Shown in pieces: positions 7,207 to 55,059 of a DNA stretch of 64,000 bases (positions are counted from its first letter, which is position 1; each line of letters starts with the position of its first letter). Origin of the DNA: Nymphaea colorata. Lineage: Eukaryota; Streptophyta; Magnoliopsida; Nymphaeales; Nymphaeaceae. The DNA lies in assembly GCF_008831285.2 (NCBI RefSeq), contig NC_045149.1:10940417-11004416 (forward strand). The letters are read 5' to 3'. A program made the translations under genes and the position numbers. The notes under the pieces are model-generated. The model worked only from the letters and a program-made list of their open reading frames with translations, had not been told where the DNA came from and ran no database searches.

Positions 7207-7598
7207 TGTTGGGTTGTGGCCATGTGTCTGACCTACATCTCATAACGTGACATACATCTCATAACGTATGAGTGGGCCCGCTCATACTACATGGTAATTA
7301 GTTACAACCTTTTTACAATAGTTATCTAAAACTGAAAGGTTGTAGCCCACTTGCTTTGTAGTTGTCTAGGCACACGGGGAATTCAAGGAAGCTTATTTTA
7401 TAAGCCCAGCTATAAGAAGTGATTTTTTTATCGCTACATAGGGTTCCTTGAAGCAAACCTAAAATGCTACACGCACCATGGTTTTTCAGTCTAATCTCTT
7501 TCTCTCTTCCTTTCTCTCCCGTTTTCTAGTTGTGCAGGTTTAAATTGCAGGCTAAGCTGGTTCATAGAGATCATCGGCAAAACATTAAAGTTCCAACA
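7207..7598 (+). repeat. 5' LTR of LARD-like element
   Basis: It begins TGTTGGGTTG and ends TTCCAACA, giving a TGTTGG/CCAACA terminal inverted repeat. It is 392 bp long. A short internal duplication of CATCTCATAACG near 7235-7270 makes it longer than the 3' copy. Confidence 0.8.
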
Positions 7599-9198: not shown

Positions 9199-10036
9199 CA
9201 GTGGCGGAGCTAGAAAATTTTGGCTAAACTTTCAAACTAAAATATATGTTATTTGAAAAATAAAGCAAATAAAACATATTAATTTGTCCGATTTAAACCA
9301 AGAGAACAATCGGTATTTCATGAAAACAACCTAACAAAATATAACATATTAGACATTAGACCAAAAAAAAAAAAAGAAACGAGGGAGAACTGAGAAGATA
9401 AACCCTACCGGGAGTCCCCCAATGTGGAACAAGACTGTGCATGTGAGAATCGAGATCCGGCCACTGGGCGTTTGCACAAAAATCGGACCAAGAGCATTGA
9501 AACTTGCAAAGGAGGGAAAAATGAAAAAAACCTAACACATTCGAAGAAGAAACGATTCAATCATTCAAGAACACGAAGAAGAATCACCTGGCGCCGCTGC
9601 CTTGCCGGCTGCTGGCTGCTGGCTGCTGCAGGCATGCCGCCCCTGGGCCTTGGCCCTTGCAGCCTTGCCCTTCGCCGTTTCGCGGCTTCAGCACTTCACC
9701 CCTTCGGCCTTTCCCTTTTTGAGTTTCGATGAATTTGAGTGTAATGGGCGGGCTGACTGTTTTAAGTTTCTTGGTGGAGCTAGATCGCTCATCGCAAGGG
9801 TAACTCGGCGTCAATACTGGCGTGACTAGTGAGGCTCCATTTCACATGGTGATTTTGGGCGTGATGGGCAGGCCGGCCGCTACTACTGGACCTGATCCAT
9901 TTCTAGCATGGGTAACCCGGCGTCAACAAGATGATTTGCTTGTTATGTTATGTGAATAAGCAAATCATCACATGGAGCTATCTTGGGCTGGTGTGGGGCA
10001 GGCGCCCATGCCAGCTCCACGCTGGCTCCGCTACTG
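9199..10036. mobile_element. hAT-type MITE / non-autonomous hAT, 838 bp
   Basis: The left end CAGTGGCGGAGCTAG (9199-9213) is the inverted complement of the right end CTGGCTCCGCTACTG (10022-10036), with two mismatches. The element is flanked by 8-bp target duplications CTTCTGTG (9191-9198) and CTTCGGTG (10037-10044), one mismatch. TIRs starting CAGTGGCGGAGC and 8-bp duplications are typical of hAT elements. No transposase is encoded. The interior has a GC-rich block (9590-9720, GCTGCTGGCTGCTGG) and a perfect 12-bp hairpin (9930-9941 with 9958-9969). Confidence 0.8.
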
Positions 10037-12547: not shown

Positions 12548-12903
12548 TTTTGGGTTGTGACCATGTGCCTGACCTACATCTCGTAATGTATGAGTGAGCC
12601 CGCTCATACGTTATGGTAATTAGTTACAACATTTTTATAGTAGTTATCTAAAACTGAAAAGGTTGTAACCCACTTGCTTTGTAACTGCCCAGCTGGGCAT
12701 ATGGGGAATCCAAGAAAGCCTATTTTATAAACCCAGCTATAAGGGTGGATTTTGAAGCAAACCCTAGAACGCTACATGCACCATGGTTTTTTAATTTAAT
12801 TTCTTTCTCTCTTCCTTTCTCTCCCGTTTTGTTGTTGTGCATGTTTAAGTTGCCGGCTAAGCATGATCATAGAGATCCTCGGTGGAACATCGAAGTTCCA
12901 ACA
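12548..12903 (+). repeat. 3' LTR of LARD-like element
   Basis: A 356-bp copy of the 7207-7598 LTR. The first dinucleotide is mutated (TT for TG); the end TTCCAACA is kept. Many substitutions and small indels separate it from the 5' copy. Confidence 0.8.
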
Positions 12904-13636
12904 CTTCCCACTATCAATATTGCGCATCCAATCAAAGTGCACGATTCTTTGAACTTTTCTGCAATTTATTTTATACCTGAAGGCTTCATATGAAGTTTAA
13001 CTTCACCAATTACATGTGTTGCTTAAATAAAGAGAGGTAACTGCAATAAAAAAGTTGCAGGGAATCAGGAATGACACTGGTGAGGTGTGGAGAAGAGGAT
13101 CAATCGGTAGAGCCTCTGTCCGATGCAGAGCATATCGGGTATTGGACCGGTCAAGATGTTAGACAAGACATCAAGGTAAGTGATCCATCCGTTAAGCCCA
13201 AGCATTTCAGGAATTTTGCTGGACAGGCGGTTATCATCTTGTCAATCTTTCATATTTACTGTCATGGTCAAATGTGTTTGAGCTATGGTTTCAACATTCA
13301 CCTATGTCGTGGTTTCTCTTTCTTGCCTGCTAGAAGATGGAAACCACTATGGATTTTGAACCTATATAACCTCCCTTGCTCATGATCTTCTGGTTGGAGA
13401 TCGTCCCTGCAGAGATTAAAAGCTTACTATACACATATGTAGATGTAGACACAAGTTGGTTTGTTTGGTACACGTGCACACATGAGAACACATCCATACA
13501 AGTTTTCAATTCCCACCAAATTGGCCAACAACTTAATAAGGATTTGGTGCCTTCTGCTACTAACATTTTACTTCTAAATACATTTAACCAATATATGGAC
13601 ATTTGATTTCACATCAATCCATCTAACAAGAAACAA
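12904..13636. other. Intergenic, nothing recognised
   Basis: Lies between the LARD-like element and a duplicated 330-bp segment. ORFs on both strands lack recognisable domains. Confidence 0.4.
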
Positions 13637-13970
13637 CTACGTGGAAAATTGAGATCCGCTTCACATATGCGAGTCTATCAAGATCGTTCTTCAAAGCTTT
13701 CATGGTAAAAATGGTGTTGTTTCCAAAAGAGACCTTGCAATGATTAGCAACACATCTCATGCAATCACCCCATAATATCAACATAATTAAAACTCTTTAG
13801 AGAAAACTCATAGAACTAAGAAGTCAAACTTACTAGATGTTCACCTAGCTCATTTGCCCTTTGGATTATATACTAAATTATTAACCTTCACAGTTGAAGT
13901 AATCACTGGATTTATCGCAAGTAATGCCTATTTTAGGAAAAAAAAAAGGTGGGGAGAGAGAGGGAGAGGT
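13637..13970. repeat. Duplicated 330-bp segment, copy 1
   Basis: Closely similar, in direct orientation, to 23386-23712. Shared blocks include GAGATCCGCTTCACATA, CAAGATCGTTCTTCAAAGCT and ACATAATTAAAACTCTT, ending in a purine-rich AGGAAAAAAA...GAGAGAG tail. The two copies bracket the NAT pseudogene. I do not recognise what the segment is. Confidence 0.8.
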
Positions 13971-16267
13971 TAGTTGGGCCCAAAACATAAGTGAAGATAT
14001 ACTTATGCATAAGCACATTCTATGATAACATGCTATGAAAATGATCTTCAATTGCCTACATAGTGGACCCAACCTAACTAGGACCCCAAGAAAAAATAGA
14101 ACAAGACAATATTGTAATTATCCATTGCTATACAAATGGGAAATGCATGATAGAGTTTGACAGATTGTAGAAAGAACAAGCATTAGAGTTTCAAATCCAA
14201 CGGAGTAACAAATTAAGACCATGATAGAGTTTTTACACTGACACAGTCTGCCTACCGGTGACCCAAATATTCCATCAAGTAGTATATGTACGCCTGTATA
14301 CAAGAAAAAAGGTGTGTCAATAATGTCCAATTCTCTCATTTGATGCTCAATTTAACGAATTACAACATCGTCATAGGAAAGGGAGGATTCTGACCAGCTA
14401 TCAGAATATAATCAAATCAATATGATAGCCCATGCGAATCACATACTGGTTTTGAGAATTATGTTATGGCTTTGAGAATTATAAGTCAAACCAAGAAAAA
14501 ACATGAAGCTAAATAAAATCATGAAAGGAAAAAAAAAAACCGGTTGAAGTTGAGGGATAGCTGAAGACCAATATCTGATGCTGTATTACCTTGAGAGAAA
14601 CAATGTAATGGCTTTATTTTTATCTTATTCAAGCTCATTTTCTATGGCTAGTATATGCCATCATTAACATCAAATAAATAATGATATAAAAGAGCGTGGT
14701 TAAACTGCACAACAACTGCAGATGAATATCATAAGGGAAAAAAATGTAATGGTTGTTATTTAAGGGAACCAGAATCAAAGTCTCTAAGAAAAGACTTCTT
14801 TGGATGCAATGGTGCACAAGATGTCTAATTTTATTAGTGCGCTGATTTCAGCTTATGAGTGCATGAGGTAGCACAATTGTGCTGATGACAGAATTTTGCT
14901 AGAAACAATATTGGAGAGCATAAAGGGGAAAAATAATCAGAATTTGTGGGTCTGCTATTGAACCTGTAAACCAAAGATTCGACTAAGGACATTTGCTTTG
15001 AGGAGGAGTAGTGCCGGAAAGCCCAGAAGCTGCATAAAATGCACCGGATGACTGCATCAAAGAGGAACTGATAAAAAAATTTTATCTAATGAACGTATGA
15101 TCTTTTATATGGTTCACACATTCTCCTCTGGTGTATCTCCATATTTGAATCAAGTGCAGCACCAATCATCCCAAATACATGACCTACATTGGAAATTGGA
15201 GGTCCCCATTGAAAAGAGTCGGGAAATCTGATCCTGCAATTTTAGTAGCACATGGTAATCACAGCCAAATAGTTGAGAATCAACATTCAAGTGAATTAAT
15301 TACTGGCCAATTTACCATGGAGAAGAGGATCCTAGATGACTTCTATCCACATAACAATGTTGCTTGGTCTCTGCAGGGGCTTTGTTATATGCACCACTAA
15401 TTGTCAGTAGAGCAGCAAATGACCAAACCAGAACACAGAAAAGCAAAGCAAACTTGTCAAGCACGGGGTAAGCTCTCGGATGGATGTGCTTTAAGTGCTG
15501 TAATGAATTAAGAAACAAGAAGATCACTTGAAATACTTCAGATAAAGAGTAAGAAATGCAGGACAGTAAAAAAAAATGTCATGGGTTAACCAATATGATT
15601 GCTTGTTGAACTCCAACTAGTGCAATCAGCATGGGCAAGCCAATTTCCACACGCTTGCCAACCTCAAGAAGCAAAAAGCAAAGTCAAAATGGTCATTCAT
15701 GCATTATAAATACGGTTCTATTTCTAACGCGGCTTGATTAAGTGAACTATTGAATCTAGTTAGAAATGAACATCAGAATCTAGATAGAAATGAACCTGGC
15801 CTGATATGAAAATTCATGGGTAAGTAGTTAGGTCAACTCAACTAAGTGCAATCACATGCACAGAAAGGTTCATCACACCTGACTCAAGGAAAAAATGCAC
15901 CTTCTAGGTTGGACATCTGACGTACAGAAAAATTCAATGGTTTCCTTCATTGAAAAGACTACTAGCATTGTAAGTATTTTGAAAATACAAACATGGTTGG
16001 ACTGTCTCTAGCAATAGCTAATGGCTACGTCAACAAAATGTGGAGTTCAAGGTGATCTGCACATAAAATATACATTGTGCAGAAAATCTAATCCAGTTAC
16101 ATGTGGAAATACTCTTTCAAACAATCCAAGACCAACCACACAAAACAACAGGAATTATCACAACAGCACTGAAGTGCCTGAAAATCATAAACACGATAAA
16201 GTTCAGATTTACAGAGTTGCAGGTTTTACAGTGAAAAAACAGCTCTTTACCTTGTGTAAGCACCCCT

Positions 16268-16745
16268 TGTAGGGATTTATCCCCTCATGGATACACAAAA
16301 CCAAATGTATATGCCCTAAACAAAACAGGATCATGCTCATGATAAATCATTGAATTAAACAAAACCTTAAACTTAAAGCAAAAGCGTACCTAAATCCATT
16401 TGAAGAACTGGACGGTAGATCATGGTAGGATCTTCCAGGGTCTTTACGGCGCACTTGAGGTCTCACTCAGATGGGGAAGAGGAAAACCCTAGAAACCAAT
16501 GTTTCAGGCAACCATTACACGACCCCAGTGACCACTACCATTTTATAAAAAGGACAATTATGGATTCCACCCATCAAAGAGTCCGTAATTACGTACCGGT
16601 ATCTATACATTTCAAAATTACCCCATACCATCTAAAATGACGTAATATCCCAAAATGCAATCACTTAAGCGGATATTTACGTTAAGACAGTCATAATGTC
16701 TGAAATTCTTCATAGACATATGTCGGCCCACCAAATGATCTTACA
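16268..16745 (-). repeat. 3' LTR of Copia 16.3-22.7 kb
   Basis: In minus sense it begins TGTAAGATCATTTGG and ends ATCCCTACA. It pairs with 22214-22691. Confidence 0.95.
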
Positions 16746-17299
16746 ATGTCCCACTTAGGCCAAATATGTCTATATACATTCAGACATTACACAAAACCTT
16801 AGGAGCTCATAATTGCTATCTTATTAAACATCATTTTCACCAATCTCGTCCATGACCATATCAACACAGAACCAAAGCGGCTTTCGCTACATAAAAATTA
16901 GCTAAACCTTCAATGATCACAAATGTTAACATGACATAGATTTGATATGGATGTATAGCATGAGAATTACATGCAATGTGATTACAACATGTCTATTCTC
17001 AACTGGTCCAACTTTAAAACCTTATGGAGATCAAAACATAAACACAGAATGGAACCAAAGAACTTTAAACTTTATTCTGCACAAAAACTGAATATGTGTC
17101 CATACATAAGAGCAAACAAAATACAAACTCCCACTAAACCAGCACATCATCCAAGGATAACACCCCCATACGAACAACATGTTCATGAAAGACCTTATGT
17201 GTTATACCCTTGATAAGCGGATCTACAATCATGGAGTTTGTCCCAATATGCTCTAGACACCTGACCATTCTGTATCCTCTCTTTAACAGCCCAAAAACT

Positions 17300-20200
17300 T
17301 AATGTCGATGTGCTTCGACTTTGACAAACTGTGGCTGTTATTAGAGTACATGACTGCTGAATTATTTTCACACAATAACCTTAGTGGTCTTTCTACACTA
17401 TACATAATGCGCAGCCCCTTGACAAAATTCCGCAATCATAAAACCTGATTGGATGTCATTATCTTGGCACCCAACAAAGTCAGAATCTGAATACCCAATG
17501 ATCTCCCATTGGTCTGGCTTCCTGTATGTGAGCATAAAACCTTTTGTTCTTTGTAAGTCCCTGAATACCCTTTTGGCTGTTTTCTAACGATCCATACCAG
17601 GATCACTTAAGTATCTGCATAACATTCTAACGATAAATGCAATATCCGAATGAGTACAAACCTGAGCATACATAAGGCTTCCCACAACAGACAAATAGGG
17701 AATCCTTTCCATTTTCTTAGATTCGATTTCACTTTTAGGGCACTGTTGGAGACTAAACTTTTCTCATTTAGCAACTGGAGTATCTCCTGGTTTACAATCC
17801 TTCATGTTATATCGCTGAAGCACATTATTAATGTAGTCCTTTTGTGATAATCCAAGAATACCCCGAGAACGATCTCGAAATATTTGGATCCCCAATACAA
17901 AAGATGCACAACCAAGATCCTTCATGTCAAACTTTGTTGACAAAAAATTCTTAGTTTCATGCAATATGCCCACATCATTACTTGCCAACAATATATCATC
18001 GACATATAAAACTAGAAAGATAAATTTACCCTCACTGAACTTTTGGTATACGCATTCATCAACCATATTAGTTTCAAAGCCAAATGAAACTATAACTTGA
18101 TAAAATTTGTAATACCACTGACGGGAAGCTTGCTTTAGACAATAGATGGATTTCTTCAGTTTGCAAACCATTTTCTTTGTATCTCCTAAAGCAAAGTTTT
18201 CTGGTTGCACCATATATATCGTTTCATCAATGTCTCCATTTAGAAACACTGTCTTAACATCCATCTGATGTAGCTCCAAGTCAAAATGAGCTACAAGTGC
18301 CATTATAGTCCTGAAAGAGTCTTTCGACGAAACTGGAGAGAAATTCTCTGTATAATCAATGCCTTCCTTTTGAGTAAAGCCCTTTGCAACAAGACGTGTC
18401 TTATACCTTTCGATGTTACCTAATGAATCCCTCTTAGTTTTAAATATCCATTTACAACCAATGGGTTTCACACCTTCAGGCAAGGAAACAACTTCCCATA
18501 CGTTATTGTCCATCATGAACTTTATTTCCTCATTCATGGCATCTATCCACTTAAGAGATTTAGAACTCTTTATTGCTTGCTAGAGGTTGACAGGATCATC
18601 CTCCATTAAGCCCATATCAACATCATGTTCTTGGAGATAGACAAAATCATTTGAAATTGTATTTCTCCTCTCTCTAGTGGATCTCCTCAATGGCACCTCT
18701 ACTTGATTTTCTTGATGTTGTTGAGTTTGTTCTTCAGTAAGGAGATCGATATCATTGCCTTCTTCTTAATATGTTGATGGAACAATGACATGAATGAATA
18801 CCTGTCTATTGCTTACAACATCTGTATGAGTGGACTTAGGTCCCTCTTCAAAGGCAATGTTTCTAACCTGGTCACCTCCCCCAAACTCAATATCCTCAAA
18901 GAAATGGACATTTCCTGTTTCAAAGAAAGACTTACTGGATGGATTATAAAACTTATAACCCCTTGACCTTTCAGAATACTCAACAAAATAACAGCTGACC
19001 GTCTTAGAGTCCAGTTTCCTTTCGCTTGGCCTATATGGCCTCGCTTCAGCTGGACATCCCCAAATATGAAAATGCCTCATACTAGGCGTTTTGTCTGTCC
19101 ACAATTCATATGGGGTTTTCGGAACTGCTTTTGATGGTACTCTATTTAGAATATAAGTTGCAGTCTTTAATGCCTCTCCCCAGAGGGACTCTGGTAAGGT
19201 AGAATGATTAATCATACTTCTTACCATATCCATAAGAGTCCTGTTTCGTCTCTCAGCAACACCATTCATTCTTGGAGAACCCGACATGGTGTATTGAGGG
19301 ACTATACCGCATTCCTCTAGGTACTTAGCGAAAGGTCCTGGGCGTTGTTCACCTGATCCATCAAATCTACCATAGTATTCACCACCACAATCAGATCTAA
19401 CGGCTTTAATCATTTTGCCTAATTGATTCTCAACTTCGGCTTTAAATGACTTGAAAACGTCTAAGGATTGAGACTTCTCATGAATCAAATACAGGTAACC
19501 ATAACGAGAGTAATCATTATGAACGTGATCAAATATTGTTGTCCATTCCAACAAGCCATAGGGAATGGACCACAAACATCCGTATGAATCAGTTCTAAGA
19601 CGTCTGAAGCTCTACTTGCTCCTGTTTTCTTAATGTTTGTTCGTTTTTCCTTTATACATTCAACGCAAACATTAAAGTCTGCAAAATCAAGGGACACAAG
19701 AATTCCATTTGACATAAGTCTTTTTATTCTTTTTTCAGAGATATGACCTAAGCGCCTATGCCATAATATAGCAGAATTCTCATTGGTTAATTTTCTTTTA
19801 GTACCATTAGACGTAACATGCAAGGTTTCATTATATGAAGCGACCGTATCAAGCAAATAGAGGTTATCGCTACTTGACAAAGAACCAGTGGCAATTAAAT
19901 TCGAATGCAGAAACAACTTAAATCTACTTCCTCCAAATAAACAATAATAACCAAATTTGTCCAATGAGGAAATAGAAACCAAATTCCGTCTAAAAGATGG
20001 TACTACATAAGTTTATGTCAAATTCAAATAACAACCAGTCTTTAACAATAACCAAAAATCTGCTATGGCTTCAACTTTCGCCTTCTTGCCATCGCCCACA
20101 TAGATGAATCTTTCAGCATAATTTGACGTTCGATAATTTGGGCAATCTTGCATAGAAACACTTATGTGAGTAGTAGCACCCGAATCTACCCACCAAGTGT

Positions 20201-20507
20201 GTCTAGGTACTGAAGTTAAATTAACCTCAGAACAAACCAAAGTGAGAAGTGTACCTTTCCCTTCACACCAAGCGTGATACTCAGTACAATCCTTCTTCAT
20301 ATGACCTTCACTCTTGCAAAAGAAGCAGCCTGATCGGCCTTCCTTATGGTTCTTTTGTTTTTTAATGGATGACTGGTCAACTGCAACTTCCTTAATAGTC
20401 TTTCTTTTCTTACTTTCAAAAAACGAATCATTTAACTCAAGAATAGTACTCAAATTTGCAGATATCATGGAAGCAGAACACACTGTACAAAGAACAAAAA
20501 ATACCAA
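17300..20507 (-). pseudogene. Copia Pol (zinc knuckle, protease, integrase, RT), broken
   Basis: In minus-strand order: zinc knuckle CFFCKSEGHMKKDC and protease WWVDSGATTHIS (20507-20013). Next is the pre-integrase HHCC region with LWHRRLGHISEKRIKRLM and the first integrase Asp (HTDVCGPF; 19982-19485). Then the second Asp in [11 protein letters not shown] and Glu in GVAERRNRT (19575-18766). Then the reverse transcriptase with LYVDDILLASND (18537-17764). A degenerate RNase H follows to about 17300. Breaks: a frameshift near 19500-19575, stops at 18766 and between integrase and RT, a stop after the RT at 17764, and further stops in RNase H. All catalytic motifs are otherwise readable. It cannot now produce a full polyprotein. 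Confidence 0.92.
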
Positions 20508-21089
20508 ACATGCTCACAATCAATACATGTACAAAGATGAAATAACAAACATAAATGAATTTAAATACAATGGCCTAAATCCCATCACAAGGTACCGGTG
20601 CAACGTTAATATCCAATCTTTGGATTGAAATACTAACTGCAAGTGGTATTCTTGGTCAACAATGAATATAGATAATTAACCCTCTCAAACAACGAGCCTA
20701 TCTTTGGATTGACTCGCTATTCACATGGAAACATGAAAAATTATCACATATTCATTGCCCTGTATACTTAAGCCTGACCAAACAATAATCCTCCTTTGGG
20801 TTGATCATTGCCCGCATGGATCAAATATACCATTATCTAATGTTCAAAACAGGCAAATTCATACAACAGAGGTCACTTTGGCGACATAAAGTACAAACTT
20901 ACTCATTTCAAACAACAGACATGGCCAAAGATAAAATTCATAATCCAAATATTCATCTAAAGTACATCCACAAATTTAAAACATGCAAAACATGATACAT
21001 GAATTAAAATTTACATAGAAATTTGCCCTACATTAAATCCAATACCAAAATGATTCAATGAAATAGGACCAAAAGAGTCTAAAATTTTA
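20482..21089 (-). other. AT-rich, intron-like segment where Gag is expected
   Basis: Between the leader and the zinc knuckle, the Gag domain typical of Copia is missing. Instead the minus strand carries three spaced copies of CAAYCCAAAGRW (near 20800, 20713 and 20620). It ends with TTTTTTGTTCTTTGTACAG just before 20482, which looks like a plant 3' splice site. It may be a spliced leader intron or filler after loss of Gag. Confidence 0.4.
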
Positions 21090-21425
21090 TGAACCGGTAC
21101 CATAATTGTGCTTAAGAGGGTCAAGAACCATTGAATCGGCCTTAAAACGGCCCGTATCGGTCATTAACCACAACTAAAACACCCACATAGCCCTAAACAG
21201 GACTGAACCGGTCCAAAAATTGGACGAACCGTTCAAAATTAGACCATATCGGTTCAAAAAAACCCACTGAACCGGTTAATAAATGGCTAAAACCGGTTCC
21301 AGAACTGAATGAACCGGTCTGAAATGCCCTGAATCGGTCTGAAAACTAACTGAATCAGTTTGAAAAGGTTCGAATCGGTTTCAAAACTGAATGAACCGGT
21401 TCATTTTTTAAAACAAGGCTGTATG
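21090..21425 (-). repeat. Degenerate GAACCGGTT repeat cluster
   Basis: More than ten copies of (G)AACCGGT/AATCGGT occur in about 330 bp, many forming the palindrome AACCGGTT. Spacing is irregular, often near 20 bp, with the common context CTGAACCGGTT...AAAA. It lies inside the Copia element between the GC-rich leader and the pol part. Confidence 0.8.
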
Positions 21426-21439
21426 GATACGAGTCGGAT

Positions 21440-22198
21440 CCGACAGGACCCGACCCGATCCGGCAAAAACTTAAAAGAGAGGCGCGCAGGCGGCAAAAGA
21501 TTTTTTTTTTCTAAATCCGATGAATCCGGATCGGGTCCTCAAGATTCGACCCGGTCCGCCCGCCCGCTCGACCACGTGAGCGATCGCGGGCGTTGCCTCC
21601 ACCGCTCGCTTGTTGAACGGCAGGCGAGCGGTGAAGCTCCACCGGTAGGCCACCCAACACCGTGGGTGGCCGCCGACGGGTGCCGCCAGCGTCGCCGGAC
21701 GTCGACCGCCACGATGGCAGACCAACGCCCACCAGTAACCGGCCGATTCTGGCCGGTTTCCCCTTCTTTTGCATTTTGCCCCTTTTGGATGGTCGGGCGG
21801 CTGTAACAGCGGCGGGAAAACCACCGGCGGGCGTCCTGAGACGTTGGGTCGGCGACGGCGGATCGCACGAGCCCGTCCGGCGACATCGAGGTAGCCGGTG
21901 GCAGCCCTTCGACGGCCGTCGCACCTTCCTTTCATCGCCCGCCCCTGCCGCTCCTGTTCCTTTCCCTTCATGGCTGCGACAGAAGCAAGGGAGCCACCGG
22001 CGGGTCGCGCCAGGACGGCTGGCAGCCGGCCATCGCCTTCCGGCGACGATTGCCTGCCGAAAAAACCAGCCGTTCATAGCCTCCCTGCACCTTAGGCGAC
22101 TGCAGCGGAAGCCCGACGGGCAGCCGAAGAACAGGGAAGAACCCAACGAGAAGACGCACAAAATCATCCAAAAGATCAACGATTCAACAATGTGCATA
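21440..22198 (-). other. GC- and CpG-rich leader of the Copia element
   Basis: This stretch begins immediately inside the PBS and is far more GC- and CpG-rich than anything around it. Long overlapping ORFs exist in several frames on both strands, as expected from GC bias. None shows a recognisable domain, so I treat it as untranslated leader or captured DNA. Confidence 0.6.
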
Positions 22199-22211
22199 GG
22201 CTCTGATACCA
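22199..22211 (-). other. Primer-binding site (tRNA-iMet)
   Basis: Plus-strand GGCTCTGATACCA is the complement of TGGTATCAGAGCC, two bases inside the 5' LTR. Confidence 0.92.
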
Positions 22212-22213
22212 AT

Positions 22214-22691
22214 TGTAGGGATTTATCCCCTCATGGATACACAAAACCAAATGTATATGCCCTAAACAAAACAGGATCATGCTCATGCTAAATCATTGAA
22301 TTAAACAAAACCTTAAACTTAAAGCAAAAGCGTACCTAAATCCATCTGAAGAACTGGACGGTACCTAGCGGTAGGATCTTCCAGGGTCTTTACGGCGCAC
22401 TTGAGGTCTCTCTCAGATGGGGAAGAGGAAAACCCTAGAAACCAATGTTTCAGGCAACCATTGCACGACCCTAGGGACCAGTACCATTTTATAATAAGGA
22501 CAATTACGGATTCCACCCATCAAAGAGTCCATAATTGCGTACCGGTATCTATACATTTCAAAATTACCCCATACCATCTAAAATGACGTAATATCCCAAA
22601 ATGCAATCACTTAAGCGGATATTTACGTTAAGACAGCGATAATATCTGAAATTCCTCATAGACATATGTCGTCCCACCAAATGATCTTACA
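22214..22691 (-). repeat. 5' LTR of Copia 16.3-22.7 kb
   Basis: 478 bp with TG...CA ends. It matches 16268-16745 with about 21 substitutions. Confidence 0.95.
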
Positions 22692-23385
22692 CCCCTTGCT
22701 CGACTGATAACCAAGCATGATGTTCAAGAAGGAAGTAACGATCAGTGATCCTTGTATGGCTCTTATGGTGTGAAAAGAGCTCTGCAATGTCTCTGTTTCT
22801 CAGTATCATGAAAAGGAAAACTCTCTCAGGTGGCAAAAGGCCCTATGATCCAAAAAAATCAATACAAAGAGCATCTTGGTGGGCTTTCTAGTTAAACTCT
22901 ACCTGTTCAGATGAGAATGAACGAATGTAAGGAGAAGTCAGAGATGCCAGACATGACGGGAATCATAAACCCAAATGATCCACCCATGACAGTAGGGAGA
23001 CATGACTCGACCAGAGTTTGGACCAATGTCAGAATAACTATAGCGTCCCCCTACATTTCCATTGGAAGAAGAAGAAAATGGTTCAAAGATTTTACACGTA
23101 TTTCTGTTTCCTATGAAAGAAGACAGAGTAGAGACGAAACTTACATGGTCTCCAACCATTAGAGGAACTGTGAGGGTGTAGATCATCATTGTGGTTCCTC
23201 GCATAACAATAAGATGTTGAAAACCCAGTATGATCGCTTTAGGTGTAAATTTATAGTACATAGAATTAGTTGCATAAAACAAGAATTTAAGAAGACATTG
23301 CGTCAATGACAGATCAGAGCATCCTTTTTCACAGGCATGAACCCACATACACGCCACTAGACATGCATTATCATGTTCACTACGT

Positions 23386-23712
23386 TACGTGGAATTGAGA
23401 TCCGCTTCACATACACAGGTCTACCAAGATCGTTCTTCAAAGCTCTCATGTTAAAAAATGTTGTCCTGTTTCCAAAGGAAACCTTGCAGTGATTAGAAAC
23501 ATATGTCATGCAATCACTCCATAGTCTCAACATAATTAAAACTCTTCAAAGAAACCTCATAGAACTGAGAGGTCAAACTTACTGGATGTCCACCTATCTC
23601 ATTTTCCCTTTGGAATATGTACAAAACTATTAACCTTCACAATTAAAGTAATCTGTGGATTTATTGCAAGCAAGTCCTATTTTAGGAAAAAAAGGAGAGA
23701 GAGAGAGAGGTC
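23386..23712. repeat. Duplicated 330-bp segment, copy 2
   Basis: Direct copy of 13637-13970. Here it lies 5' (minus sense) of the first detected NAT exon. Confidence 0.8.
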
Positions 23713-24451
23713 AATCGGACACAAGAAAAAATAGAACAAGAAAATATTGTAATTATCCATTACTATATAAAAGGGGAATTCATGACAGCATGAGACATGT
23801 GCTTGTGTTAGTGAATCACTATATGTGACAACAAAAATGAACAACCAAAAAGGCCAATCAGCATTACTATGCAATATTTTCATAGCCATCAACACTGACA
23901 CACCTTTGTTTGTAGAGGAAAAAAAAAAATCTTGTTTGCAATTAGTTCATCAACTGTTGCCACTTGTCGTCTATAGAAAAACAAAATTCTTCTTCCACAA
24001 ATAGCAAAAGTAAATGGATTATTGATAGACTATAGAGCGCCTCTTGTTGAAATGAAATAAATATTGTAAATGATAGCATATTGTTGAAAAATTTTTGGTT
24101 CACAATAATTTCTCAACTATTATTACCTATTATCTTCATAGCAACAAAATTTTTGTACCACAAAAAGGCAAAACTACGACAACTACTAACCAATTATAGA
24201 AGAGCATCCTATTAAAACTAGACAACAAAAAGTGTCATTTATCTTTTCAGAATTTAGCACATGTGTAATAATTATAATTACTTACACATTTCAACCTTGG
24301 ATAGTTTCTCTTATCATTCCTGTCCTTCTACATGCATGACATTGTCTCTGTTTTGCAACCACACCAGCAATCGAAATGTTCATGCACAATCGTTCAATGG
24401 TACAAATAATATGTAATAGGTAAACTGAAATCAGTTAAATAAACAACTTTA
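23713..24451. other. AT-rich gap, nothing recognised
   Basis: Non-coding between the duplicated segment and the FAR1-like pseudogene. No repeat termini or RNA genes were seen. Confidence 0.4.
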
Positions 24452-25245
24452 CTAGGATTTTATATTCAAAAGACATGTTTGGGAATCATGTCCATGTCGA
24501 CCACGTGCAGCACAAGATCTCATCAATTTAGTTTGATGAATGCCTAAAATAATTCCCTTTGCACTTCCTTTAGCACAAACTGATTCACGGTATGTTAAAA
24601 TCACATCATCGTGTTCATTCTCAGTTGTACTGTGCAACACTTTGATTTGTGCACTTTCATTACAATTGTCATTATAGACAGTTTTTGCCTTATTCATCAC
24701 ATTTCCTAAATGCTCGAACAACTTATCAAACCCACACATTGCATCCTCATAACATTCAACAGCTGACAATGCATGATTAATGCACTTGTGAACTTTTAGA
24801 TACAGAATATTCTACTTCATCAACAAAAAATTGTTGCATCTTCCACTGTTTGGGATGTTAAATAATGTTGTTCCACACATGCTTTCTTGAGTCTGATCCA
24901 TGTTTTAAGTACATAAGCTTCTGGTAATTTGAACATCAGTTCTCATTAAATACTGTAAGCATTTGACATCAAACAACACCAGAAGATACTCATAATTTAC
25001 ATTTACAGCTTGACAAAGATCGACTTCTTTCATCATATGAGATTATGTACTCCTTTATATTTGGAGTTGCTTCAAGTGTAACAATGATATCTTCCATCAC
25101 ATGCTTAACAGTACATGATCTCAATCAGCAACAGGTTGGCTGAGCACAACAATGCAAGTCATAGTTTTCAAAAATTTTACTTGAAAGTGCTTTCTAAACA
25201 TCTCAGGAGTAAAAGTAGTTTGCAAGTGAGTCTCCATAGGATGCC

Positions 25246-25435
25246 TATAACAACCCAACCCACTCCCAGGCTTGGGCCCCTGGTTCGATGGATCCCGACC
25301 CGCCTTCTAGCAGTTTCGGTTCCAATCCTAAAAAGGCTAGGAACCAAGACAATCATCTCATTAAAGCCTCCCTTTATAAGCCCTTGGAAATCTCTCACAA
25401 TCTTCGTTACGAGACTAAACTTTTGGGGTGTTACA
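25246..25435 (-). repeat. TRIM 3' LTR
   Basis: 190 bp, direct partner of 25512-25701. Confidence 0.92.
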
Positions 25436-25511
25436 ATCCACCCTCCTTAAGGCACACTTGTCCGCGCGTATGGGACCCCAGGTCCGAGTGTTGAACCGGC
25501 TTTGATACCAC

Positions 25512-25701
25512 TATAACAACCCGACCCACTCTCGGGCTCGGGCCCCTGGTTCGACAAATCCCAACCCACCCCTTAGCAGTTTCGGTTCCAATCCTAAAAA
25601 GGCTAGGAACCAGGACAATCATCTCATTAAAGCCTCCCTTTATAAGCCCTTGAAGATCTCTCACAATCTTCGATACGGGACTAAACTTTTGGGGTGTTAC
25701 A
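25512..25701 (-). repeat. TRIM 5' LTR
   Basis: 190 bp. In minus sense it is followed by one base and the PBS. Confidence 0.92.
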
Positions 25702-27260
25702 ATGCCCATGTTGTGGTGGGTTCTGTCTCATTGTTCATTTTGAAATCTAAACCCTTTTCATGGTATCGTTGTCTACTAATTGCCTCTTTATATTTTACAA
25801 ATAATTCACTCAAGCTTATATGTATATTGACCCAATTATTAAAATAATTGTTCACGTTTTCAGTTTGCTAGGTCGTAGACATTCCCGCCATGAAAGTGTT
25901 ACTACAATATGGTTTCGCCCATGTACTCCTTTCGTTCCATAAGTTGGCCCATTCAATCTCTTGTAGCTTTGGATATAAACTGATTCTTTGTTCAAATTTT
26001 AAAAACCATACATTCCACAATTGTTTAAAGTAAACATTTTGTTTATACAAATCTCCAACATAAATTGGCACTTTTGTAAATATGTGGCAATTACAACAAC
26101 TATTGACCGTATTTGGGAAAATTTCATTCAGCACTGCCTTCATTGGAAGGGTTTGATCAGTTAGAAATGCTGTTGGAGCTTGACACCACATTGCATGCAG
26201 GCATTCTTGAAAGTGCCACTTGAAAGTTTGTCTTCTCATTAAAAGGACTTGCACAACCAAAAATGATACTTTGGGTATGATGATTCACAACTATGAAGGG
26301 AGCAAATGGCATATGATATGTGTTTCTTTTTTATGTGGTATCGAATGACACTAAGTCTCCAAAGCAATAATTTTGACGTGCGATGGCATCTACTATAAAG
26401 CAATTTCCTACTTGTCCATTTTCAACAACTTGAATAGCATAATAAAAATCTGGATTTTCACCTCTTTTCTTCTTGAAGTAATTTAGCATTGTTTGACAAT
26501 CTTTTCCATAATAAGTCTTTGCAACTTTTCGAGCATGCCTATATAGTTGCTCTTTACTAATTGGCACATGTTATATATCTCCAATCTCGTGTGCAAACAA
26601 ATCCACACCTTTGATATTCTCATCGCTGACCCAAGCATTGCATTTACTATATTCTTCTGAGGAGTGTTTAGCTTTTTTGTTGTTAAATATAATTCATCTT
26701 GGAAGGAGAATGGAGATAAAGATTATGTGGATATTGAATATTATGCACACACCATTTTTTTCTTCTTCAAATCGACTTCAATGGTCATCCATGCTTTGCA
26801 ACCACACCTCACACTTGCATAATTCTTCTTCTCGCTGCCTTTCTGTATCTTTTTTCCATTTCTTCTGCAGATAAACTGTTTCCAACAAATAACACCTTGC
26901 TTCCTTTTTTAGTCATATATACATGTATCGAAACTGCCTGTCCTTGCATACATATTATAGAACTCATAAGCTTTATCAACACTGTCAAATTCCATTCCAA
27001 CATATGGTACATATTCGCTGGAAACATTTGGAATTAATTGTTGTTTTAGGTTTGTCTCTTTAGTACAAGCAACTTCATTCTCGACATCTATTTTTTCATT
27101 CACTTCATCCAAATTAATGTTTTCATATTCCATGCATCTTCATTATCCAAAATCATTGTGATTTTATTGACCTCAACCCTTACCATATGTGCACTTGAAC
27201 TTGCATGAACATCTAGCTTTATTATCACAGTTGAACTTATAGGGCTGCAACTTTGATCCA

Positions 27261-39870: not shown

Positions 39871-40559
39871 TATGTTGTGACAGTGATGCAGTCAATAAAA
39901 GCCAGCTCAAAAAAGTAACTCCCATCACCACTCATCCTTTGGAGAAGGGAAGCAATAGTTTTGGTATGAATATAGTGTTCGAAAAGTCAAGGATCAATGT
40001 TTTAAAGTACAATAAAACAACCCATCAATGGTTTGAAGAGGAACACATTACATGATAAGAGTCGATGTAGGGCAAAAAATGTATTGGAAAAACAAGGTAA
40101 AAAAAGGAAGAAAAGGCAACAAAGTGATCCTTAAGGACATGAGTATGTTTTGTTAAAAGTGCTCCAGTTGAGACTTGTATGTTATGCACATCTATGCAAG
40201 AGTTTTATGATCGTAGTGATTTTGAATAACTCTTGGTAAATTTTTATATCATACGTATTTCTTGCCAATTATATGTTTTAACTATAAGCACAATTTGACA
40301 ATCGAAGATGTGCAATTGTTACAAAGTCACATGAATTTAGTTGGTCCTCTTATGCACTATTTTGGACAAGAACTTAGTATCTAATTCTTTCAATGATATT
40401 CGATGCAATGTGGAATATGATATCTATGGCCATGTGTAGGACAGTAAACAAGCATTTGGAATGTACACTGTAATGTTAATTATTGGCTGATACAACTTAA
40501 ATAATTTTCATAAATTAACAAACATTATCCACTACTTCTTTGAGTCAATGAGTGTATGT

Positions 40560-41235
40560 TAGAGATAACCACCATCTGTCAGTAGTGTGAGATAATAAGT
40601 GAATTTTAACATAATGATTAATGGTCTAATGAGGACCGTCTATTGACTGTGTGAGATAATTAGTTTTTGTTAGTGGTGTAAGATAATGAGTGTCTATTAG
40701 ACATATGGAACATCTTTTAATGGTGAGAGTTAAGTAGTGTTGTTAGTGGTGTGAGATAATGATGGTCTGTAAATAGAGTGAGATAAGGAATATTTGTAAA
40801 TGGTATGAGATAATAAGTATTTGTTAGTGACATAACAAGTATCTATAATTGATAACTATCGTCTGTTATGGTGTGAGATAACGAGTGTCTGTTAACAGAA
40901 TGTTTAATGGTTTGAGATAAGGATCGTGTGTAAATAGTGTAAGATAATGAGTATCTATTGGTAGGGTTAGATAGTAAGTGTCTATTAAAGATAACCACCG
41001 TTTTTTAATGGTGTGAGATAATAAATGTCTGTTAGAGATAACCACTGTCTGTTAGTCATGTGAGATAACAAGTATCTATTAACTGAGTAATTAAATAATT
41101 TTAGATAAGGATTATCTATTGATAGTGTGAGAAAATGAGTGTTTGCTACTAGTGTGAGATAACGAGTTTCTATTAGTGGTGTGAGATAATGACCATCTGT
41201 TAGTGGTAAGAGATAACTACTGTCTGTTACAACTT
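40560..41235 (+). repeat. GTGTGAGATAATGAGTGTCTGTTA array, block 2
   Basis: Roughly 25 diverged copies of a unit of about 27 bp (GTGTGAGATAATGAGTGTCT plus GTTAGTG). Other variants carry AACCACCATCTGTTAG. The long minus-strand ORF through it (40985-41308) is a repeat artefact. Confidence 0.85.
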
Positions 41236-44464: not shown

Positions 44465-44870
44465 CATACAAGTGTCACACCATTAATAGACACTCGTTAT
44501 GTAATACCATTAGCAAATACTCGTTATGTAATACCATTATCTCACACCATTAATAGATACCCCTTATGTAATACGATTAATAGACACTCGTTATGTAATA
44601 TCATTAAAAAATACTCATTATGTCATAGTATTATCTCACCATTAATAGACACTCATTATATAATACCATTATCTCATACTATTTTTAAACAATCGTGAAA
44701 TCATCTCAAACCATTAATAGACATTTGTTATCTTACATCATAGACATGTGGTCATTATCATTCTTAAACAATTATCATCTCATCTCACACCATTAACAGA
44801 CATTCGTTGTCTCACACCATGAGACATTCGTTGTCTCAAACCATGAGACATTCGTTGTCTCACACCACGG
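44465..44870 (-). repeat. Array block 3 (complementary orientation)
   Basis: Repeats of CTCACACCATTAATAGACAC plus TCGTTATGTAATACCATT, the reverse complement of the block 2 unit. Confidence 0.85.
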
Positions 44871-44889
44871 GCAAACCATCCTTGACATT

Positions 44890-45200
44890 TTTAAACAGTC
44901 GTTACATGAGATAACAATAGGAGTACAAATAACATGTCCTATAGTCTCTGAAATAACAACAAGGGCATGACCTAGTGAAACAGATAGCTGCTGAGCTATT
45001 GACAAAGGCATGAAATAATGAAACAGATCTTATAGTGTCTAAGTTAATGACAGGGGCACCTATTAACAAAACAGGTCCTTTGGCATTTGAGATAACGAAA
45101 TGAGTCTGACATAACAAAAAGGGTGAGACCAAATAACATGTCATATAGCTTCTGAGATAACGAAAGGGGTATAAGATAACGAAATGTGCAAGACCAGAAA
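44890..45200 (+). repeat. Array block 4 (plus orientation variant)
   Basis: Repeats of GAGATAACGAAANGGGT with TCCTATAG and AACATGTC phrases. This is the same variant as in block 6. Confidence 0.8.
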
Positions 45201-45239
45201 ACACATTATCTCCCCATGGACAAACGGTCCTTACTTTTA

Positions 45240-45590
45240 AGCAGTTGTGTCTCACACCATTAATAGACATTCTTGATCGCACACCATTGACAAATGGTTC
45301 TTATTATTTTGAAACAATCATGATCTCATCTCACACCATTAATAGACATTCTTCATCGCACACCATTGACAACTGGTCCTTATTATTTTGGAACAATCAT
45401 GATCTCATCTCATACCATTAATAGACATTTGTTATCTCACACCATGGACATACACCCCTTTATTATTTTTAAATAGTCTCGTTATCTCATCTAATAATAT
45501 TCATAAACATCTATTATCTCACACAATGCCCAAACGGTCTTTATCTCACACCATAGATAGACATTATAAAGCACACCAATAAACACAATT
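45240..45590 (-). repeat. Array block 5 (complementary orientation)
   Basis: CTCACACCATTAATAGACATT and CAAACGGTCCTTAT repeats, complementary to the block 2 type. Confidence 0.8.
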
Positions 45591-47749: not shown

Positions 47750-48600
47750 TGCAAGAGGCAAATGAATCATGAGATAATGTCTTACTATCTTTGTTATATA
47801 ACAAAAGGGGCATGACTAAATAATGTGTCCTATAGCATCTATGATAACAGAATGGGTGGAACATCCTAAAATGTTTGTGGTCATGAAAAGGGTATGAGAT
47901 AACAAAACGGGCGAGGCAAAAAAATTGTGACATATAATGTATGACATAATGAAAGAAGTATGAGATAACAAAAGAAGTGGAATCAAATATTATGTCCTAT
48001 AATTTCTGAGATAACGAAATAGGTTATATAGCATCTGAAATAACAACAAATATATGAGATATGAAATAGGTTCTATAACATCTAAGATAATGATAGGGGT
48101 ATGAGATAACGAAATGGGTCCTACAATATCTGAGATAATGAAACAAGTATGAGATAACGTGCCTCATAGCTTTTGAGGTAACAATAGGGGTACAAATAAT
48201 GTGTCATAGTGTTTGAGATAACAACATGGGTATGAGATAACGAAACAGGTCCTATAGCATATGAGATAATAGCAGAAGCATGAGCTAACAAAACAAGTTC
48301 TATAGTGTATGAAATAACGAAATGGTCTAAAAGAGACAGTGCCAATCAATGCATCCTATGGCATATGAGAACCATAACCAAATAACACATGTTATAGCAT
48401 CTAAGATAACAAAAGAGGTATAAGATAATGAAATTGGGGGGATAAAAAAATGCATCCTATAACATATGAAATAAGGAAATGCACAGGACCAGAAAATGCA
48501 TCCTATAGCATCCAAGAGAATGAAAAGAATCTGAGATAACAAAAAGGATGGAACCAAATAACATAACTAATAACATCTGAGATAACAAAACAGGCATGTC
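47750..48600 (+). repeat. GAGATAACGAAAnGGGT array, block 6
   Basis: About 25-30 diverged copies of TATGAGATAACGAAATGGGT with TCCTATAGCATCT spacers. ORFs through it are repeat artefacts. Confidence 0.85.
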
Positions 48601-49501: not shown

Positions 49502-49739
49502 TGAAAAACCTCAAGAGTATCGTGAGAGAGAGAGAAAGAGAGGACACGAGAAAATACTAGAATCTCTTCTACATTGTATATGATTGAGAAAATAGCAAAT
49601 ATATAGAGTAGATGGGAGGTTAGAACACAATATGGCAAGATATAAAATCGTATCAGATCCACAATTATAGGGTATTGACGTTGCCAATTAGATCCACAAT
49701 TATATGCTCCTCAATCATTATCCAAAACCTTCCTTAACA
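49502..49739 (-). repeat. 3' LTR, 238 bp
   Basis: Shorter than its partner because it lacks a 29-bp and a 5-bp internal duplication. Confidence 0.92.
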
Positions 49740-52700
49740 ATCTCCCGCAATCTGAACGGTGGTTCTACGACGTTGAGATTGTTTCTGAAAGTTTTGAACA
49801 TCATTCCTCCAAGAGCCTTTGTCATCCCATGTGCAGGTTGCTCTTTGGTTCGAATGAAGTTCACTTATATCTCTCCCTTATTGATATGATCTCTAACGAA
49901 GTGAAAATCAATTTCAACATGTTTGGTATGAGCATGAAAGACTGGATTTGTTGCTAGGTATAAAGCACCTATATTATCGCACCATAGGACTGGTGTATCT
50001 TGTGAGGAGATCTTCAAATCCTTGAGAAGCAATTTTAACCATAGTATTTCTACAGCAGCACAGGCTAGAGATTTGTATTCAGCTTCAGTGCTGGATCGAG
50101 CTACAGTCCTTTGTTTTCTGGAGGCCCATGAGATAACATTATTTCCTAAGAGAGCAACAAAACCACCAGTCGACTTTCGGTCTTCCGGACTTCCAGCCCA
50201 GTTTGCGTCTGTATAGATGCTTAATTGCAATGAAGGCGATTGAGTCAAGCGAAGAACATAATGGCTGATGCCTTTTAAATACCGAAGTATTCTTTTAACC
50301 ATTGTCCAATGAGCCACTTTGGGAGAGTGCATGAACTGACAGACACGATTTACCACAAAAGTAATATTAGGTCATGTCAGTGTAACATACTGTAATGCAT
50401 CTATCACACTCCTATATAGTGTGGGATCCAAAAAGGAGGATTCTTCAGCAATTGTGACATTTTTGGTAGTCACCATGGGAGACGTTGTGGGTTTGGCATT
50501 ATCCATTTTAGCTTTGTGAAGAATGCTATTAATGTAATTTTCTTGGCACATGTATATCTCCCCGAGTTGTCGCTTGACTTCAATGCCTAGAAAATACGTG
50601 AGAGGGCCAAGATCTTTAACCAAAAAAGTGGAACCAAGCTGGGCAATGATACGAGAAATGAGGGCTGGTGTAGATCCGATAGTTATCAAATCATCAACGT
50701 AAACAAGCAGATAAAGTTGATGCCCATCACGAGAGTAAATAAACAAGGATGCATCAGATTGAGACACAACAAAACCAAGATCAGTAAGAAAGCAACTCAG
50801 GCGATGATACCATGCGCGTGGAGCCTGCTTGAGCCCATAGAATGCTTTACCTAATTTGCAGACATAATGAGGAAAGGTGCTATCTTGAAAACCCTCAGGT
50901 TGAGCCATATATACATCTTCGGAAAGATACCCATTAAGAAACTCATTGTCAAAATCAAGTTGTCGTAAAGACCAACCAAAGTGGGCAGCTAGAGATAGTA
51001 ACACTCTGATAGTGGTGGGTTTGACAGTCAGACTAAAAGTTTCTTGATAGTCAATGCCAGCCGTTTGAAGAAAACCCCGAGCGACAAGTCAAGCTTTATG
51101 TCGTGCAATAGAACCATCAGGGTGACATTTGATTTTGTAAACCTATTTGGAACTAATGACATGGAGATTCGGTTGTGGGGTACAAGATGCCAGGTTTTGT
51201 TTTTTTGCAATGCTGAGAACTCATTTTGCATAGCATTACGCCAGCACAATGATTGAATGGCTTCTTTAAAATTCCCTGGTTCCTCTTGTGCTGTGATGGC
51301 TGAAAAAATTTTTGGTTTTGAAGAACCTATCATAGAACGGGTTAGCATTGGATAAGATCAAGACTGGTGGTGGCAGCATCAACAGTCAAATCAGAATAGT
51401 TGGTGTATCCAGAACAGATGGTGTCTCTGATGTAGGACTTTCAGTCTCATTGAGCGATAGACCGAGGTGCTCACGAGGTGAAGTCGTGGCAGAGGTTGTA
51501 GCCATAGGAAGAGGTAACAAAGTATAAGTGGAGGCTGTTGTTGACTGTGTTGGATCACACATTGGATCAACTGGACTAGAAGGAGAGTCGTCAGACATAT
51601 TTGGTAGCCAACGAGAAACGAGTTAATCTATGAAATCTGTAGAACAATCAGATCCATGTGTATGAGTTTCATCAAAGACAACATGTTGAGATATAAGAAT
51701 GCAAAGATGTCACTTGTCATAGCATAAATATCCTTTATGATGACTAGGATAACCCAAGAAAATACATGAAGTAGTATTGGGCTGAAATTTGGAATCATTC
51801 ATAGGCGTCAATAGTGGATAGCATGTGGTTCCAAAAACCCTCAAATGTGCATATTCTGGATCCTTGTGAAACAACATATAAAAGGGCGATTTGCGCTGCA
51901 ACTTCAAAGTTGGTAAACGATTGATGATATAAATGGTAGTGCGAAAAGCGTCAACCCAAAAACTATATGATAATCCAGCATCATAAAGCATACTTAATCC
52001 CGTTTCGACGGTATGACGATTTTTTCGTTCAACAATTGTTCGGGAGTATAAGGGCAAGAAAATTGATGCATAATCCCATGTTCATCACAGAATGAGGCTA
52101 AGTCAGAGTTTACAAATTCTTTGCCATTGTCAGAATGAATGGAGCATATATGTTAATTTAACTGCTTTTCAATCAAGATCTTAAAATTCTTGAAACATAG
52201 AACAACTTCAGACTTAGCTTTGAGAGGAAACAACCATGAAAATCTAGAATAATCATCAATGATGAGTAGAAAGAACCTGAATCCCTCTCGAGAGGTGATG
52301 GGGGCAGGTCCCCATACATCCATGTGAAGCATTTCAAGAGATTGTGAGGCTTGAAAATCAGAAGTTGGAAAGGATTGCTTATGTGCCTTTCCCAAAAGAC
52401 AAGACTTACATACTCCTTTTGGAATAGGAGAATTTATTGATATGAATCTACTGGAATTTAAAATACCAACGATCTTCTTGTTGGCATGACCAAGACGCCG
52501 ATGCCATAGTTCGAATGGTGCTGAAATTTTATTGACGTCTACTGGAAACCAACAACTAAATGCTTCTCCCTTGGTTGAAGATGAATCTATGTTTGACCTC
52601 GTCGCCTTAATGGGATGGAGTCCGTTATGCATCTTTGGTCCTTGAAGTAGAACCTTGCCCATCTGTTGATCCTTAATAACAAAATCATGTGGTGAAAATT

Positions 52701-53912
52701 GAAAAATACAATCATTTTCAGATGTAAATTTTCCCACCGATAAAAGATTGTGAGCCATTTTGGGCACATGCAGGGCATTGTTAAGATGAAACGAAGATAC
52801 TGCAGTATTAACTAATAAATTATATATGTGCTTAATAGAGAGACTTGAACCATTACCAATCATGATATTGTCCAATCCATCATATGCCGTCTTGTTGTGC
52901 ATCATCTCATCGTTGTTGACAATATGCTTGGTTGCTCCCGAGTCGGGATACCAATATTCACCAGTGGATTCTTGTAAACTCATGGCAGAGAATGCACGTG
53001 GAATATCATAACATGTCCTTGCCGAGTGACCTTTCTGTCCACAATATTGACATGTGATGATGGAGCGAGGATGACTTCCATTTCCTGCATTGTTCTTGGA
53101 GTCTCCATTTTGTGGTGGTTGAGTTTGAACATGTGGTCGATTTCCTCTTCCTTGGAATCGACCTCCTTGCCGACCTCTGAAGCCACCTCGTCCTCTTCCG
53201 CACCCTCGAAAAGTGTTGAAAGTAATCTGGTTTTCAACCTATGGTAATGCTTGGATAGATTTGTGAGGATCGACCCTAGCTGACTTGAACATATTAAGTC
53301 TCTTCTCTTGCGTGAACAAAAGATCAAACAGCTCAGAAAACGTAATCGAGGCATTTGAAGAATTAGCACTAATGAGAGTCACAAAACTTTCATATTCAAT
53401 AGGCAAACCATTCATTGTGATCTGTACAAGATCACCATCCGTTGTATCTAATCCGGCCGCGGATAGTGTATCAGCAAAAAATTTGATTCGCTCCAAGTAA
53501 GTTTGCATATCCATATTGCCTTTTGAATGAAATGTAACTCCTTTCGCAACAACATTATTCTCAAAGGTGATTGAGAACTAAATGACTTTTTCAGCGTATT
53601 CCATGCCTCAAACGCTGATTTACTAGTCACGATTTTTCTGAGAACTGGTTCGGAGACGGTGGCCTTGATCCAACTTAGTGCTAGTCGATCAGACCTCTTC
53701 CAAACAGCAAACTCTGGATTTACTTCAATCTTGCTGTCCTTGACAATGGTTTCTGAAGGAGTGGGGAAAGTCCCATCTATGAACTGTATAAGTTCTTGGG
53801 ACTCCATGACCGATTCCAACTGGGAGCTCCATAGTAAATAGTTGCCTCGGTTAAGCTTAACAAAGATAAGTGCAGCGATAGCATTCCATTGAGTTGACGA
53901 TGGAGTTGCCAT
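49740..53912 (-). pseudogene. Copia Gag-Pol polyprotein, broken
   Basis: Minus-strand order: Gag from ATG at 53912 (MATPSSTQWNAIAALIFVKL), frameshifted near 53515 and continuing to about 53240. An RG-rich stretch and zinc knuckle CQYCGQKGHSARTC follow (about 53050-53010). Protease WYPDSGATKHIV is near 52950. The HHCC region (LWHRRLGHANKK) and first integrase Asp (HMDVWGPAP) run up to a stop near 52153. Frameshifted integrase with VERKNRH (52057-51710) is next, then a variable linker. The RT contains LLVYVDDLITIGS (51004-50372) and ends at a TGA that looks like a CGA-to-TGA change. RNase H (TDANWAGSPEDRKSTGGF; 50356-49865) ends in a TAA, after which the frame stays open to the polypurine tract. 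Inactive. Confidence 0.92.
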
Positions 53913-54648
53913 AATACTTCTACAGAGAGAAAGAATATGATGGTTACAGTAAAAGACAAAGGACGTTACCCTGTTAGTAGATCCAGGGACCTTCGTTTCT
54001 TGAAAAATCAGCAACTCCTAACTGGATTGTCCAAAAATTCTGAATTTCGGAAACAGTAGACTCACAACGGAATCCAACGCCACCAAATTCGTTTTCAGAT
54101 CCGAACCACAACAAAATCGCGCCTAAGATGAAGTGACGCCACCAAATTTGTTTTCAGCTTCAATACAGCTACAGGGAGCTCTTCAGACCAGCCTATGGTT
54201 AAAAATTCATAGCGCCCTGGTGTCAACTCCAAAATGTCTGAAATTTGGTGTGGAGATAGACAAAAGGAAGACGATTCCATCGGGTCCTTGCTCAATGCAA
54301 ACGGTGGCCGGAGCTGACAACGCCGATGATCGGAATTTCAGCAAAATCTCGGGTTACAGCAGGCGGCCAGAACTGACAACGGTTGGAAAATCTGCGATTC
54401 CAGCCGGCTCAGGTGTCGGATTCAGTCGATCTTGGGCTCGTTGGAACCGGAACGAATGGAGGGTGCTAATTGTATAGTGTGGAGGCCAAAGGTTGCCGAC
54501 GCTGGCGGTGGTGCTCTGATGAACAGGAACGCAGGACAGTTGCTGAACAGAGGGCTCAGCAGAATTGGGGAACAAGGATCTTTGCAATATTTTGCTGCAA
54601 AGAAATCTCTGCAATTGATCCATGGAAAATCAAGGTGGAGCAGAGGCT

Positions 54649-54661
54649 GGCTCTGTTACCA
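54649..54661 (-). other. Primer-binding site
   Basis: The complement reads TGGTAACAGAGCC, directly adjoining the 5' LTR. Confidence 0.85.
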
Positions 54662-54933: not shown

Positions 54934-55059
54934 TTTTCCTTCAAGAAAGTCCTTCAAAAAGCTTTTCAGATGGGAAGGGTGCACCAACCTTTCTCAAAAT
55001 TATATTGCATTCTTTTTTCTTTTTCTTTTTTGGACAGCTATTTTTGTCTTGCCATAAAA

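Follow-up and report, generated by a model that had tools for sequence, protein, structure and literature searches.

A Copia-type retrotransposon in a split exon of a probable NAT pseudogene in Nymphaea colorata

When a retrotransposon lies inside an exon and the empty site can still be read, was its arrival the event that inactivated the gene? The question is raised by a locus in Nymphaea colorata, contained in a 64,000 bp stretch of contig NC_045149.1 (GCF_008831285.2; positions 10,940,417 to 11,004,416), here called the window and used for all coordinates. An earlier note on this DNA had described a Copia element sitting in a coding exon of a NAT (nucleobase-ascorbate transporter, NCS2/SLC23-like) gene, and had proposed that the exon sequence, the target duplication and a pair of near-identical LTRs together date the disruption relative to the gene. 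Our preferred reading, to which we assign a probability of about 0.85, is that a Copia retrotransposon integrated into an exon of a minus-strand NAT copy that is a pseudogene with independent lesions and was probably already non-functional, and that the element has decayed since. Ordinary integrase-mediated insertion would have left the 5 bp duplication, and the frameshifts and altered splice sites of the NAT copy would have arisen independently of it.

The features of the element and its host are listed in Table 1. In the plus orientation the element has the ends TG...CA, bordered on both sides by the 5 bp duplication CCCCT, and paired LTRs with a short target duplication are as found in Ty1/Copia elements. 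The duplication thus lies at the break, as had been claimed, and the flanks can be joined, and the empty site read, from the LTR and target-duplication anatomy. A Pfam search of the element returned a Copia-type reverse transcriptase (RVT_2, PF07727; E = 1.2e-73), SH3_retrovirus (7.9e-20), gag_pre-integrs (5.3e-16) and zf-CCHC (3.6e-5), in Copia order. On the minus strand, gag_pre-integrs (within 19485–19982) is followed by SH3_retrovirus (18766–19575) and then RVT_2 (17764–18537), which puts the integrase region before the reverse transcriptase in the element sense; the integrase core itself (rve) scored below the Pfam cut-off. The complete minus-strand layout is primer site, GC-rich leader, AT-rich stretch with short repeats, zinc knuckle, GAG-pre-integrase, integrase-associated domain and RVT_2.

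Table 1. Coordinates of the Copia-type element and of the NAT exons that surround it, in order along the minus strand
Feature	Position	Strand	Evidence and remarks
NAT exon, ~residues 55–86	23145..23243	-	tblastn E 4.4e-10 combined with next exon; donor CAT/GTAAGT
NAT exon, ~residues 93–145	22903..23044	-	start of coding stretch partly missing; possible frameshift 22921–22924
NAT exon, upstream half	22692..22781	-	tblastn E 2.5e-5; probable extra base relative to NAT frame at 22703–22706
Target site duplication CCCCT, right copy	22692..22696	.	
Copia-type LTR retrotransposon, whole, 6,424 bp	16268..22691	-	same sense as host NAT gene; LTR pair and Pfam domains
5' LTR (element sense), 478 bp	22214..22691	-	LTR alignment; TGGTATCAGAGC, which we take to be a tRNA-Met-type primer site, adjoins on minus strand
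3' LTR (element sense), 478 bp	16268..16745	-	purine-rich GGCCTAAGTGGGA just upstream on minus strand
Target site duplication CCCCT, left copy	16263..16267	.	
NAT exon, downstream half	16251..16262	-	donor CAAG/GTAAAG
NAT exon	16101..16177	-	1-base frameshift at 16140–16143
NAT exon (VGKRVEIGLPMLIALVGVQQ)	15603..15662	-	donor GC
NAT exon, ~residues 226–287	15316..15497	-	tblastn E 3.4e-24 with linked exons
NAT exon, ~residues 287–319	15137..15233	-	donor lost (AT)
NAT exon, ~residues 320–348	14964..15051	-	frameshift 14997–15000
Last recognisable NAT remnant, ~residues 349–370	14190..14294	-	tblastn E 0.25 only; placed by colinearity; homology fades

The zinc knuckle, in 20013–20507, is the sole gag-side match. 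Four minus-strand ORFs within 20440–22212 matched no gag family in Pfam, in a search that covered minus-strand frames of 51 residues or fewer in 20575–21470 only in part. As the pol features are present, the missing gag core points to decay or to a non-autonomous copy. The pol reading is interrupted by stops and at least three frame changes, counted by eye, and this copy is therefore defective. It belongs perhaps to the TNT1/Tork lineage. The leader (21440–22160) has 60–67% G+C in 400 bp windows within an otherwise AT-rich element, and both strands contain long open frames; three of its minus-strand ORFs matched no Pfam family below E = 0.01.

When plant NAT proteins were used as tblastn queries, colinear exon matches were returned on the minus strand from about 23243 down to 14229. 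The best E values were 3e-24, 4e-10 and 2e-5, compared with 0.012 at best for shuffled proteins (40 rounds, three proteins in each). The reference proteins, whose sequences may be inexact, all come from one distant plant; one of them was checked, and is a PF00860 permease (5.4e-68) that matches SLC23A1 structures (3.8e-83). The homology spans residues ~56 to 355–370 of a protein of roughly 550 residues, and the window copy is identical to the reference NAT protein, presumably AtNAT3-like, at 149 of 273 aligned residues. Six exon pieces searched separately, all short (24–62 residues each), did not match the NAT family in Pfam (PF00860) or NCBIfam (0/6). Of two short pieces compared with the PDB, one gave three unrelated rows (E 0.63–1.5) and the other none, and the 43-residue joined peptide, again a short query, gave no NAT match. 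Together, the LTR pair, Copia Pfam domains, TG...CA ends, CCCCT duplication and tblastn exon matches uphold the placement of a Copia element inside a NAT-type exon.

The right flank of the element encodes HTIRAIQGSLIVTSFLNIMLGY on the minus strand (22781–22692), and the left flank ends at a splice donor, CAAG/GTAAAG, with 16251 as the last exon base; both halves are as first described. Only about four codons lie left of the break. The donor at 16251 is a consensus one in phase 2, and it fits the first codon of the next exon, which begins HFSAVVIIPVV after a CAG ending at 16178, beyond a 73 bp intron. In all three reference NATs, G-Y/F and the R that precedes F/L-S-P delimit a stretch of 11 residues. 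A one-base shift at 22703–22706 yields GYSRARGAYTR, which has the NAT frame, the 11-residue spacing and a phase 2 donor after 16251, and a frameshift-aware gene model run on the joined flanks with a frameshift cost of 9 found this shift unaided. With a cost of 12, no shift was placed there and a donor at the break, GGG/GTGCTT, was preferred; a model with the other reference NAT (cost 9) likewise set the donor at or near the break. Most likely, the split exon carries a one-base frameshift of its own 12–15 bp from the element, a reading that depends on the penalty chosen, and the peptide read straight across the break is then probably not in the NAT frame. Insertion within coding sequence of the exon is retained, but the frame originally read across the junction (GYQSSKGCLHK) is doubtful because it is the other frame that agrees with the conserved NAT spacing.

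The alignment score at the true join was 142.5, and joins offset by -8 to +8 bases scored 140.0–145.5, with the best at -1 and +6. Sliding the join in this way was dropped as a test of the exon, as the aligner absorbs the shifts. Because the score is insensitive to the offset, the exon claim leans on the LTR and target-duplication anatomy and on the spacing. The whole left flank, next exon included, adds real similarity, scoring 142.5 where the highest of 200 shuffles of that flank reached 123.0. It is very improbable that the flanks are not two halves of one exon and that the left flank beside the element is intronic. The shortness of the left half, the slightly higher scores of some wrong offsets and the donor chosen at the break, both under the stiffer penalty and with the other reference NAT, are all in keeping with an intronic flank. 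However, a donor at the break would cut by four the 11-residue spacing of the reference NATs, and the donor at 16251 suits the next exon.

Apart from the element, the host copy bears several lesions. Both frameshift-aware models contain frameshifts at 16140–16143 and 14997–15000 and a less certain one, close to an exon end, at 22921–22924, and both have GC in the donor position after 15603 and AT after 15137. GC donors can work. In the stiffer-penalty model, parts of residues 87–104 are absent. When the 64 kb, with the element masked, was searched with three reference queries, residues before 56 or after 370 had no tblastn match below E = 0.1, and the best chance-like matches were at E 0.14–0.15. 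The open reading frame and intact splice sites of a functional gene were thus not found. As the frameshifts, altered splice sites and unrecognisable ends are none of them due to the insertion, the host is on this reading a degraded, truncated NAT pseudogene whatever the element did, and the description of a NAT gene broken by the insertion is overstated. The lesions are those obtained with the best-scoring reference NAT (733.5 compared with 531.5); the other NAT places several of them elsewhere. Placements of exons and frameshifts that lacked tblastn support were excluded, namely those beyond residue ~355 (14159, 14128, 14066, 13929, 13691 and 13546), a weak stretch for residues 42–52 (24075–24041) in the cost 9 model and, in the stiffer-penalty model, two frameshifts before residue 56 (23454 and 23359).

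The LTRs proved less alike than near-identical, as they differ at 21 of 478 positions in a gap-free alignment (11 transitions and 10 transversions; 95.6% identity; K2P 0.045). With 4.4% of sites different, the insertion is not fresh. Five of the 21 differences are clustered in six bases, 16418–16423, and without this block K2P is 0.035. If 1.3e-8 or 7e-9 substitutions per site per year are assumed, rates that may not be those of the host, the insertion dates to ~1.7–3.2 million years ago, or 1.3–2.5 million years with the block excluded; at the slower rates 5e-9 and 2e-9, the LTR divergence corresponds to 4.5 and 11.3 million years.

Evidence on the order of events comes from lesion density and from conserved sites. 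Three frameshifts were found in 0.88 kb of NAT exon compared with three, counted by eye, in 3.35 kb of pol (one-sided P = 0.11); adding the one at 22921–22924 gives four against three (P = 0.04), all of these being small counts. At positions common to two functional reference NATs, the window copy is changed at 32–42% and the third functional NAT at 16–29% (66 vs 46 of 158, 44 vs 22 of 134 and 49 vs 42 of 154), as counted on the stiffer-penalty alignment, in which the split exon is free of frameshifts. A simple binomial test of the conserved sites (35/112 changed) gave a tiny P but was left unused, as many of these sites vary among functional NATs too. From the frameshift density, the conserved-site changes and the absence of any indel between the LTRs, we conclude that the gene copy was likely, though this is unproven, non-functional before the element landed.

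The converse, that the insertion was the first inactivating event in a NAT gene functional until then, with the other lesions acquired later, we consider rather unlikely. It is consistent with the absence of in-frame stops from the 273 NAT codons, for which the expected number of stops is 0.6 at the LTR distance and 2.5 at a distance of 0.1 substitutions per site; a young pseudogene would account for this absence no less well than an old one. A few frameshifts and splice changes could have accumulated over the 0.023 substitutions per site that the LTRs imply for each lineage, and some Copia elements prefer coding exons, among them ONSEN of Arabidopsis, for which PMC8501995 gives coding exons as 65% of insertion loci among 237 novel insertions. 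However, the somewhat higher frameshift density in the NAT exons than in pol, the excess of changes at conserved sites, the terminal NAT exons not found in the window and the lack of an indel between the LTRs all speak for a copy that had died earlier. The order cannot be fixed from the window alone; lesion density and conserved-site changes point to earlier gene death, the lack of in-frame stops does not, and the proposal that exon, duplication and LTRs date the disruption relative to the gene is not sustained. Somewhat less probable again is a NAT gene alive until the insertion, for which close relatives would still have the empty site in an intact allele or orthologue and the knock-out would be datable from the LTRs.

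The NAT piece might also be a gene fragment that was captured or transposed, or have arisen by unequal exchange between tandem copies, with the Copia element landing in it later. This is unlikely, although neither gene end is recognisable and direct repeats (13638–14160 and 23386–23797; 84–90% identical, one with ~100 bp extra) lie on both sides of the remnant. A MULE transposase remnant is also nearby (25871–26284, minus strand; E 6.5e-6, 26.9 bits, just under the curated cut-off of 27.6). However, the flanking repeats are direct, and Pack-MULEs have inverted ones; by eye the repeats have no LTR-type ends or primer site and may represent an unrelated repeat that is present twice, and the NAT piece has retained its introns.

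The window element resembles ONSEN-type exon insertions, as described in PMC8501995, in its Copia pol domains, TG...CA LTRs, 5 bp duplication and exon target. It differs in being old and decayed, without a recognisable gag core and with an apparent pseudogene as its target. Similarly, the host copy is like plant NAT/NCS2 (SLC23-like) genes, of which the maize NCS2 family is treated in PMC6031955, in its colinear exons and over residues ~56–355/370, and unlike them in that both ends are truncated, the frame is shifted, splice sites are altered and a 6.4 kb insertion is present. As the NAT gene has several breaks of its own, the locus appears to reflect ordinary decay of the genome rather than a clean knock-out that can be dated. 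On a small scale it illustrates layered decay, made up of a truncated gene copy, frameshifts, a retrotransposon and the decay of that retrotransposon. Even where the empty site can be read and a target duplication is present, it does not follow that the insertion killed the gene; the remainder of the gene must also be read.

Several other features were seen in the window. A direct repeat pair (7248–7598 and 12570–12903; 79% identical, 5.3 kb apart) perhaps represents the terminal repeats of an old element; ORFs 9394–9729 and 12685–12990, between the repeats or at the right one, had no Pfam match. The MULE remnant adjoins a 193 bp direct repeat pair (25245–25437 and 25511–25703; 91% identity). 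Loosely related tandem arrays with many ~27 bp units, partly in opposite orientations, extend over 8 kb (40541–41229, 44475–45554 and 47939–48594). A second, different Copia-type element at 49502–54934 has terminal repeats that are ~83.5% identical, a gag remnant and, by eye, minus-strand pol ORFs. Finally, an intact 562 aa ORF on the plus strand (56976–58664) encodes a major facilitator transporter (Pfam Sugar_tr, E = 9.7e-46), which we take from its sequence to be a PHT1-type phosphate transporter.
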